Shown here one piece after another: positions 43,129-45,416 of a stretch of DNA of 64,000 nt. This DNA comes from Candidatus Poribacteria bacterium (GTDB lineage: Bacteria; Poribacteria; WGA-4E; WGA-3G), in NCBI GenBank assembly GCA_007571305.1, contig RKRR01000103.1:1-64000 (forward strand), in the 5' to 3' direction. A model generated the notes under the pieces. That model was not told where the DNA came from. It ran no database searches and was given only the letters and a program-made list of their open reading frames with translations. Made by a program: the position numbers and the translations under genes. Each line of letters begins with the position of its first letter. The first letter of the stretch is position 1.

Positions 43129-43968
43129 ATGAAAAACGAAAAAAAAGATACGCAGAAGCAGGCAAATGAACTTGATGGAAAAACATGGCTGCGATATTCA
43201 GTTTCCGTATGGAATGATATTAGGAAAACGAAAGAGGAGGTTGAACTAAAACATCCTGCTATGTTCCCGATAGCGCTCGCCCATCGTCTTATTGCGTGTT
43301 TTACACCTCCCAAGGACTCTTTAATATTAGACCCCTTTGCTGGTGTTGGCTCTACATTGCTTGCCGCGAAGGAGTTGGGCAAGGATGCCATCGGATTAGA
43401 GATTTCTCCAGAATTTGCGCAGATCGCTGAAAGACGCATAGACCAGATGCTGCCATTTGCAGGACAAACTGATGTCCAAATCCATACTGCCGACTGTCGA
43501 GAACTTTATCGATATGTTTCTCCAAACAGTGTAGATATGGTAGTGACATCGCCTCCGTATTGGGATATCTTGCTGCAAAAACGGACTGCGGATAACAAGG
43601 AACAACGGGATTATGGAGAAGCTTCAGCAGATTTAGGAAAGATTCAGAATTATGAGAAATTCTTATTAGAACTGCGTAAGGTATTTGAGCAAGTTTACAA
43701 CACAATGAAGCCGAAAAGTTATTGCTGCATCATTGTTATGGATATACGGAAAAAGAACCGTTTTTACCCGTACCACATTGATATTTCCCAGTTTATGCAG
43801 GATATCGGTTTTATCTTCGACGATCTTATGATATGGAATCGAGCGCAGGAGTACAACAATTTGCGTCCCCTGGGATATCCGAGTGTATTTAGAGTCAATA
43901 AAGTTCATGAATTTATCTTGATTTTTCAAAAACCCAAGGATGGGAGTTTGTCTGGTGAGCTTGATTGA
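43129..43968 (+). CDS. Site-specific DNA methyltransferase (N4-cytosine or N6-adenine, SPPY motif), permuted order
   Basis: LILDPFAGVGSTLLAAKELGKDAIGLEISPEFAQIAERRI (motif X-I) precedes MVVTSPPYWDIL (motif IV). Confidence 0.9.
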   Translation: MKNEKKDTQKQANELDGKTWLRYSVSVWNDIRKTKEEVELKHPAMFPIALAHRLIACFTPPKDSLILDPFAGVGSTLLAAKELGKDAIGLEISPEFAQIAERRIDQMLPFAGQTDVQIHTADCRELYRYVSPNSVDMVVTSPPYWDILLQKRTADNKEQRDYGEASADLGKIQNYEKFLLELRKVFEQVYNTMKPKSYCCIIVMDIRKKNRFYPYHIDISQFMQDIGFIFDDLMIWNRAQEYNNLRPLGYPSVFRVNKVHEFILIFQKPKDGSLSGELD

Positions 43969-44917
43969 AGATATAGACTATATCGATGCGGATGTTGCCT
44001 ATCTTCTTGGGTTGATCACAGCAAGAGGGAAAATCTCAGAAGATTCTGATGTCCGGCGAATTATCATAGAATTTCCCTATAAATCTCTTGAAATTGAAGG
44101 AATCTCTGCGCGTTTCGATACTGATAGCTCGATAAAACTTGGCTTGCAACAAATCCAAGAGCGTGTCTTGGATGTAACAGGTGCTGATGTAAGTATCAGG
44201 AGTACGAATAGCAGCATTACACTGGTGCTACGCTTTTTTAGGAATACGATGATATGGCGAAACATTTTGATGCACACGCAGGAAGATGCTGGATACGAAC
44301 ATTTTCGAGTTCCAGATATATTCTTTTCCTCAAATATCCCGGCAGACTGGAAACGAGAATATCTTAGAGGTTTCGCAGATGTTGCAGGCAATATCAGGCG
44401 GGCTAATCGTTATGTTGATGGTTCTGACCGTGTTCGTTTGGATGTCTTGAACTATCAGACCAATTGGGAAATGCCGGTCCTGCTCTGCACTTTATTAGAG
44501 GAGCACTTAAAAATACCCATTCAATTGATTACTTGGGGACATCCAAACATGGGAAGAAACTTTAGAGAACATCAAATCAACATTTTCGCTGTCCCTTTTG
44601 GAGAAATCGGTTTTTCATTTCCGCATAAACAAGCATTGCTTCAAGAATTTATAGCGCATGATAAGGAACATTATCCGAAGAAAATTTATAATCCGTGTCT
44701 CGGTAAAAAATTATTAGGCAAACGAAAACGAAAGCCAAAGGACAGCCGGGAAAGTGATGACAGACTTGACTCGAGACTAAAAGGACAACATTTTAATGCT
44801 TACTGGCAAATTTGCAAAAAACTCGGTTGTCCACGTACTCCAAAAATCCTTGAACAAGAAGGGTGGCAGATTAACAAGCGACAGGCATTAGAGGAAGTCC
44901 CAGAAGATGAAATATAA
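43940..44917 (+). CDS. LAGLIDADG-like protein, catalytic residues apparently lost
   Basis: Two LAGLIDADG-like helices, AYLLGLITARGKI and EYLRGFADVAGNI, separated by about 120 aa; overlaps the methyltransferase 3' end by 29 bp. Confidence 0.6.
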   Translation: MGVCLVSLIEDIDYIDADVAYLLGLITARGKISEDSDVRRIIIEFPYKSLEIEGISARFDTDSSIKLGLQQIQERVLDVTGADVSIRSTNSSITLVLRFFRNTMIWRNILMHTQEDAGYEHFRVPDIFFSSNIPADWKREYLRGFADVAGNIRRANRYVDGSDRVRLDVLNYQTNWEMPVLLCTLLEEHLKIPIQLITWGHPNMGRNFREHQINIFAVPFGEIGFSFPHKQALLQEFIAHDKEHYPKKIYNPCLGKKLLGKRKRKPKDSRESDDRLDSRLKGQHFNAYWQICKKLGCPRTPKILEQEGWQINKRQALEEVPEDEI

Positions 44918-45416
44918 ATCTGAAAAGGATATGTATCCTGATGTGTGTCAATGGTTAGAGGCTTTTCTAAAGGACCGCTTTCGACAGGCTGACGTTGATG
45001 TTCATTCCCTCCCGCATACCGCAATTTCCCGTTTTCTCAGTACATATAGCCGGGGCAATTTCCCCGGAGAGTGGGTCACATGGAATATTAAAGTTGATAT
45101 TGTTGGATTTGTGCATCATCCAAACAAACCAACAACTTTGGTTTTTGTAGAGTGTAAAAACACCAAACTTACGCTGGCGCACCTTTCCCAACTTCTTGGA
45201 TATAGCCGTATTGCTCGCCCAATGTATTCGTTTCTAATTTCCCCGGTAGGTTTTTCCCGATCACTTGTCTCCTTACTTCAAGAATATCAGCGGCGCGATG
45301 TGCTGAAATATCGTTGGGAACCCGGAAAATTGCCGAGGCAGGTTATTGTGGCGCAGTGGGAGATGATCGGTCGTAATCTAAATAGACACACTATGATCGG
45401 AGGTGCAGGTTTATAA
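44907..45416 (+). CDS. PD-(D/E)XK-like restriction nuclease candidate
   Basis: KVDIVGFVHHPNKPTTLVFVECKNTKLTLAHLSQLLGYSRIA (D...ExK, then QLLGY); overlaps the previous gene by 11 bp. Confidence 0.65.
   Translation: MKYKSEKDMYPDVCQWLEAFLKDRFRQADVDVHSLPHTAISRFLSTYSRGNFPGEWVTWNIKVDIVGFVHHPNKPTTLVFVECKNTKLTLAHLSQLLGYSRIARPMYSFLISPVGFSRSLVSLLQEYQRRDVLKYRWEPGKLPRQVIVAQWEMIGRNLNRHTMIGGAGL

Follow-up and report, generated by a model that had tools for sequence, protein, structure and literature searches.

A putative two-subunit restriction-modification system with a catalytically degenerate LAGLIDADG protein and a small PD-(D/E)XK nuclease in Candidatus Poribacteria, plasmids and phages

RESULTS

Organization of the locus

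The window, meaning the whole stretch of DNA that was analysed, comprises 64,000 nucleotides from a Candidatus Poribacteria bacterium, a sponge symbiont. Three open reading frames, here called genes 1, 2 and 3, follow one another on its forward strand (Table 1). A sequence-only reading of this DNA had described three same-strand genes with overlaps of 29 bp and 11 bp. Strand, coordinates and the 11-bp overlap of genes 2 and 3 were all reproduced, but the 29-bp overlap of genes 1 and 2 hinges on the start codon chosen for gene 2. Read from its ATG, gene 2 would span positions 43940-44917 and encode 325 amino acids. This ATG is not conserved: one ortholog (L007) has no start codon at that position, and the gene 2 orthologs of a sister genus, in which the long overlap is absent, carry an ATG exactly at the position of the window's GTG at 43955. 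Because of the missing conservation and the start of the sister-genus orthologs, the overlap of genes 1 and 2 is probably 14 bp rather than 29 bp, and GTG 43955 is, from the ortholog comparison, the most likely true start of gene 2.

Table 1. Coordinates of the three genes, their motifs and the solo homologs of gene 3
Feature	Position	Strand	Length	Assignment or residues	Basis
Gene 1	43129..43968	+	279 aa	predicted DNA methyltransferase (N6_N4_Mtase, SPPY type), presumed self-protection enzyme	Pfam, PADLOC, orthologs
Gene 1 methyltransferase motif I	43330..43356	+		DPFAGVGST	seen in translation; DPFAG-GST invariant in alignment A2
Gene 1 catalytic motif IV	43546..43566	+		TSPPYWD	seen in translation; invariant in alignment A2
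Gene 2	43955..44917	+		two-repeat LAGLIDADG protein, catalytically degenerate; proposed subunit for recognition/targeting	hhalign, AlphaFold, Foldseek, ortholog starts
Gene 2 first LAGLIDADG motif	44003..44029	+		LLGLITARG; eighth residue R (N in non-Poribacteria), not D/E	motif table, 13 relatives
Gene 2 second LAGLIDADG motif	44363..44389	+		LRGFADVAG; eighth residue A (T in non-Poribacteria)	motif table, 13 relatives
Gene 3	44907..45416	+	169 aa	predicted small PD-(D/E)XK nuclease, proposed cleavage subunit	AlphaFold, Foldseek
Gene 3 predicted active site	45096..45158	+		D64 (45096-45098), E82-x-K84 (45150-45158)	invariant across alignments
Gene 3 QxxxY	45189-45203	+		Q95xxxY99	invariant across alignments
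Solo gene 3 homologs	L092:5003-5530, L093:4824-5351, L094:2970-3560, L095:2946-3476, L096:2929-3519, L097:2948-3499			six Poribacteria genomes, two genera	catalytic residues kept

The methyltransferase gene

Gene 1 had been read as a methyltransferase of the SPPY type, and profile searches bear this out. Its product matches Pfam N6_N4_Mtase (PF01555, 1.4e-37) and PADLOC MTase_II (1.7e-48) and meets the criteria of both motif I (FxGxG) and motif IV ((S/D)PPY), which identify it at the sequence level as an N6/N4-type DNA methyltransferase. Orthologs are intact in all of the genomes of the window's GTDB family that have the methylase (12/12). Purifying selection is observed throughout, including genomes with broken genes 2 and 3 (dN/dS about 0.05-0.22).

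A gene 1 homolog with 61% identity was also observed beside a different ORF of 204 aa (G008, L109:2588-4229). This ORF carries a PD...EYK signature (PDFLIV...YLEYKC) without a convincing family match. Here a related methylase may be served by a restriction enzyme of unrelated origin.

The LAGLIDADG protein

In LAGLIDADG motifs the eighth residue is normally the metal-binding acid. Two LAGLIDADG-like motifs had been noticed in gene 2, with R and A at this position. Searches of Pfam, NCBIfam and PADLOC with gene 2 gave no match, the Pfam WhiA family was not matched at E values up to 10, and PHROGs yielded only a single weak partial match (E 0.028). A profile of the gene 2 family, built from an alignment of 13 members, was then compared with an alignment of two-repeat LAGLIDADG endonucleases from genomes of the same phylum. 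This hhalign comparison resulted in E = 6e-10 and a probability of 96.6%, with both motifs collinear. For the decoys, the probability never exceeded 0.63% with 40 column-shuffled alignments; it was 0.23% with the reversed alignment and 0.16-0.26% with unrelated families. The match was reproduced with the Poribacteria members alone (95.7%) and with the non-Poribacteria members alone (93.3%). A single-repeat LAGLIDADG profile matched only weakly (about 11% probability), yet placed both motifs correctly; for the assignment by sequence profiles, the two-repeat profile was decisive. In a Foldseek search of the PDB with the AlphaFold model of gene 2 (pLDDT 71, pTM 0.79, only 7 aligned sequences), the best 50 matches were all LAGLIDADG proteins, including I-AniI, I-DmoI and WhiA (3hyi). 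Profile comparison and predicted structure together establish a two-repeat LAGLIDADG fold as the predicted fold of gene 2, and the motifs are not a chance resemblance. The criterion for the LAGLIDADG superfamily, two repeats in alpha-beta-beta-alpha-beta-beta-alpha topology, is thereby fulfilled.

The missing acids were likewise confirmed. In 13 of 13 relatives, position 8 is R or N in the first motif and A or T in the second, and never D or E. This loss is observed in common among gene 2 proteins that are only about 30% identical. The criterion for an active LAGLIDADG homing endonuclease, an acid at position 8 of each motif, is failed by gene 2, which, judged by these residues, cannot use the standard LAGLIDADG chemistry.

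WhiA had been named as a precedent for a LAGLIDADG-derived DNA binder that does not cleave. This parallel is only partial. It stands for the fold: WhiA/DUF199 shares with gene 2 a degenerate, non-cleaving bacterial LAGLIDADG fold. It is weaker for DNA binding. WhiA is a transcription factor whose specific DNA binding is due to its C-terminal HTH, and its LAGLIDADG domain alone gives no footprint (PMC3781837). By this analogy, a LAGLIDADG domain that has degenerated need not bind DNA. Gene 2 further differs from WhiA in lacking a match to the WhiA family and in being coupled to R-M genes, so that only the LAGLIDADG core fold is common to both.

Apart from gene 2, a QueE-like radical-SAM ORF (L118, genome G044) was seen to contain what appears to be an in-frame insertion carrying LAGLIDADG motifs; this is probably an intein. 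Querying IMG/VR for homing endonucleases returned nothing usable.

The nuclease

A D...ExK signature (KVDIVG...FVECKN) had been pointed out in gene 3, and it is indeed present. D64, E82-x-K84 and Q95xxxY99 are observed to be invariant over gene 3 alignments of 27-90% identity. The AlphaFold model (pLDDT 79.5, pTM 0.81) has an alpha-beta-beta-beta-alpha-beta core and no evident extra recognition domain. AF1548, MspJI and NucS/EndoMS were its best Foldseek neighbours; McrBC, BamHI and EcoT38I were found lower down, and AspBHI was found also. The top E-value was only about 1e-3. Since the Foldseek E-values are modest, the assignment leans on fold plus residues, which together mark gene 3 as a small nuclease of the PD-(D/E)XK type, with the fold being a predicted one. 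Gene 3 thereby satisfies the criterion for this superfamily, an alpha-beta-beta-beta-alpha-beta core that bears D and (D/E)xK on neighbouring strands. No meaningful match to gene 3 was obtained in Pfam, NCBIfam, PADLOC or PHROGs, and a comparison with the YhcG_C PD-(D/E)XK profile had too few sequences. When PADLOC was run on relatives of genes 2 and 3, weak partial matches were obtained for one relative only. Neither gene has a curated family in these four collections.

Distribution and loss in Poribacteria

The site of the trio was surveyed in 59 genomes of the window's GTDB family. The trio occupies a single chromosomal site, flanked by a HEAT-repeat gene and a 2-oxoacid:ferredoxin oxidoreductase gene. 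The upstream HEAT-repeat gene and the downstream 2-oxoacid oxidoreductase genes were regarded as mere neighbours; they persist at sites without the trio. Seven genomes carry an intact trio (G000, G005, G026, G084, G069, G073 and G081), and in G015 the contig end falls inside gene 2. In four genomes the methylase is intact and genes 2 and 3 are broken: G018 has an in-frame TAG nonsense codon at W59 of gene 3, a deletion in G014 joins codon 39 of gene 2 to codon 131 of gene 3 (L012:5900-6230), and G078 and G082 retain remnants. Six genomes have an intact gene 3 but neither the methylase nor gene 2; in these, gene 3 begins at the former methylase start (Table 1). These solo homologs are under purifying selection in two genera that lack gene 2 (dN/dS 0.09-0.32). 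Fragments of gene 3 alone were found in about a dozen more genomes. In G064, from another genus, pieces of both the methylase and gene 3 remain at this site, which indicates that the trio is old there. An alternative recognition protein in the genomes with gene 3 and without gene 2 was considered, but the loci show solo gene 3 at the same site instead.

Gene 2 was never observed without the methylase. It is found in 9 of 12 genomes with the methylase versus 0 of 44 without it (Fisher 3e-8, no correction for phylogeny). The linkage criterion of Type II R-M systems, that the nuclease is not kept without the methylase, is met by the pair of genes 2 and 3, and not by gene 3 alone. Without gene 2, gene 3 apparently does no harm, as it has been kept intact in six genomes that lack methylase and gene 2. 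Genomes tolerate gene 3 in the absence of the methylase only if they have also lost gene 2; from this we infer that gene 3 probably becomes dangerous through targeting or activation by gene 2. A solo gene 3 may have a function of its own. The asymmetric loss observed here is the hallmark of a restriction module that is dangerous only in the presence of gene 2. The R-M-like character that the sequence-only reading had ascribed to the trio is supported by this pattern, in which the methylase is intact whenever gene 2 is intact and genes 2 and 3 decay while the methylase is kept; the biochemical function is inferred.

The same genomes bear on a different division of labour, in which gene 3 would be the restriction enzyme in full and gene 2 would regulate or control the operon, in analogy to WhiA or to the controller proteins of R-M systems. 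R-M operons often include a regulator, and a LAGLIDADG-derived transcription factor, WhiA, is among the fold matches of gene 2. However, a complete specific enzyme should be lethal in the six genomes in which selection maintains gene 3 without methylase and gene 2, and gene 3, a small protein of 169 aa, is without an evident additional recognition domain. Gene 2 also lacks a WhiA-type Pfam match, and a short overlap couples it to gene 3 both in the window and in the non-Poribacteria members described below. We regard a WhiA-like regulator as unlikely and as weaker than a split restriction enzyme.

Occurrence in plasmids and phages

Adjacent copies of genes 2 and 3 were found by tblastn in Lactiplantibacillus plasmids and in two gut phages. 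In IMG/VR, Poribacteria-only queries found nothing, and three more contigs with the pair were recovered after the plasmid and phage relatives had joined the query. Outside Poribacteria the pair is about 30% identical to that of the window, and both genes, where annotated, are called "hypothetical proteins". At every one of these loci, DNA methyltransferase genes lie directly upstream of the pair. In L013-L016 an EcoRI-type adenine methylase and a C5-cytosine methylase are fused, L022 has EcoRI-type and C5 methylases as two separate genes, and L020 and L021 have an Eco57I-like methylase together with an N6_N4 homolog that is 48% identical to gene 1. Across lineages, the same gene 2/3 pair is accompanied by three different kinds of methylase. 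Conservation of the trio in other genomes, suggested earlier as a check, is thereby established across phyla for a methylase with genes 2 and 3, with the partner methylase varying. None of the outcomes named beforehand as refuting the sequence-only reading was obtained, whether in the folds of genes 2 and 3, in the conservation of the trio or in the family collections searched.

Regions downstream of the trio (L015:4202-6295, L021:5768-7387 and L022:7403-9991) encode a GmrSD type IV restriction enzyme, an OLD-like ATPase and an AAA/SMC ATPase. GmrSD after the trio in phage L015 and the ATPases in the viral contigs constitute a phage-carried defence setting.

The variety of methylases touches on whether the module is a classical R-M system at all. 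Genes 2 and 3 could be linked to a methylase and yet, for example, have DNA with methyl groups or other modifications as their substrate, or serve in abortive infection. The differing chemistry of the methylase partners is compatible with such a role, and the modification-dependent MspJI, AspBHI and McrBC are among the solved structures nearest in fold to gene 3. On the other hand, a methylase that is kept whenever gene 2 is kept points in the protective direction, and a modification-dependent nuclease would be toxic to its own host if its neighbour were an active methylase with the same target site. We consider a non-classical role of this kind quite improbable.

Even less credible is the reading of gene 2 as a homing endonuclease in decay, which would have invaded an ordinary methylase-nuclease pair and would have no part in restriction. 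LAGLIDADG homing endonucleases do insert beside conserved genes, and both catalytic acids of gene 2 are lost. But a dying parasite would not last long enough for this loss to span proteins of about 30% identity. Moreover, purifying selection acts on gene 2 (dN/dS about 0.07-0.14), and Poribacteria, Lactiplantibacillus and phages all have it in the same place, between the methylase and gene 3.

Whereas the Poribacteria trio contains one methylase, all other lineages contain two. In BtsI, two methyltransferases, one per strand, accompany one recognition subunit and a small catalytic subunit, BtsIA, that is inactive alone (PMC2909958; PMC4081073). By analogy, two methylases of unlike chemistry suggest, as an inference, an asymmetric target of which each strand is protected separately. 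A second methylase acting in trans was sought in the trio genomes, with no convincing relative or ortholog found. How a single Poribacteria methylase would protect both strands of an asymmetric site remains unexplained.

DISCUSSION

It seems probable that the three genes form a compact, Type II-like R-M system with two restriction subunits, a dead LAGLIDADG protein for recognition and a separate nuclease; its cleavage, complex formation and specificity are inferred. In such a system, gene 1 would methylate the host's own copies of the target sequence. Gene 2, as a LAGLIDADG pseudo-dimer that has lost both catalytic acids, would bind this target on unmethylated foreign DNA and recruit or activate gene 3, which has no obvious specificity domain of its own and would cut the DNA. 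The specificity of gene 2, its complex with gene 3, the blocking of site-specific cleavage by methylation and the restriction of phage DNA are inferences only.

The two-subunit logic of this proposal is already known from BtsI and BspD6I, which resemble the trio in having separate recognition and small catalytic subunits; BtsI moreover has two methylases, as do the non-Poribacteria members. In contrast to gene 2, which is without the LAGLIDADG catalytic acids, their large subunit nicks one strand. A large nicking subunit homologous to theirs, the criterion for a heterodimeric restriction enzyme of this type, is not present, and neither gene 2 nor gene 3 has a meaningful match among PDB chain sequences. 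A methylase with two cooperating proteins is known as well: in CglI/NgoAVII (M + R + N), two proteins are jointly needed for cleavage, and the N protein is a helicase/ATPase (PMC4267653). No ATPase family match was found for genes 2 and 3 of the window, unlike the N protein. A separate specificity subunit is also a feature of Type IIG systems and of the S subunits of Type I systems. S subunits also serve the methylase, and their fold is unrelated to LAGLIDADG. Unlike the S-subunit systems, the present module combines three kinds of methylase with the same pair of genes 2 and 3. Finally, gene 2 shares its fold and two-motif arrangement with LAGLIDADG homing endonucleases (I-AniI, I-DmoI, I-OnuI, PI-SceI), but differs from them by the lost acids, by its fixed methylase and nuclease partners and by the absence of an intron or intein.

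We did not find a LAGLIDADG fold in a restriction system in the open-access papers searched. Restriction enzymes are described with PD-(D/E)XK, HNH and GIY-YIG catalytic sites. The standard review of Type II enzymes does not mention LAGLIDADG (PMC4081073). On balance, and with considerable reserve, we lean towards a class of restriction enzyme that has not been described before. Its exchangeable recognition subunit would be a dead LAGLIDADG protein that delivers a separate PD-(D/E)XK nuclease, and plasmids and phages would have spread it, combined with at least three methylase sets.

LAGLIDADG proteins read long, asymmetric DNA sites. If the proposed system is real, it could yield rare-cutting two-part enzymes, and the methylation motif of the methylase should equal the target site and so provide a direct readout of it. 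The system would represent a natural separation of reader and cutter with rewired specificity, a counterpart of engineered designs that join a dead binder to a nuclease. It would also link selfish homing enzymes to host defence.
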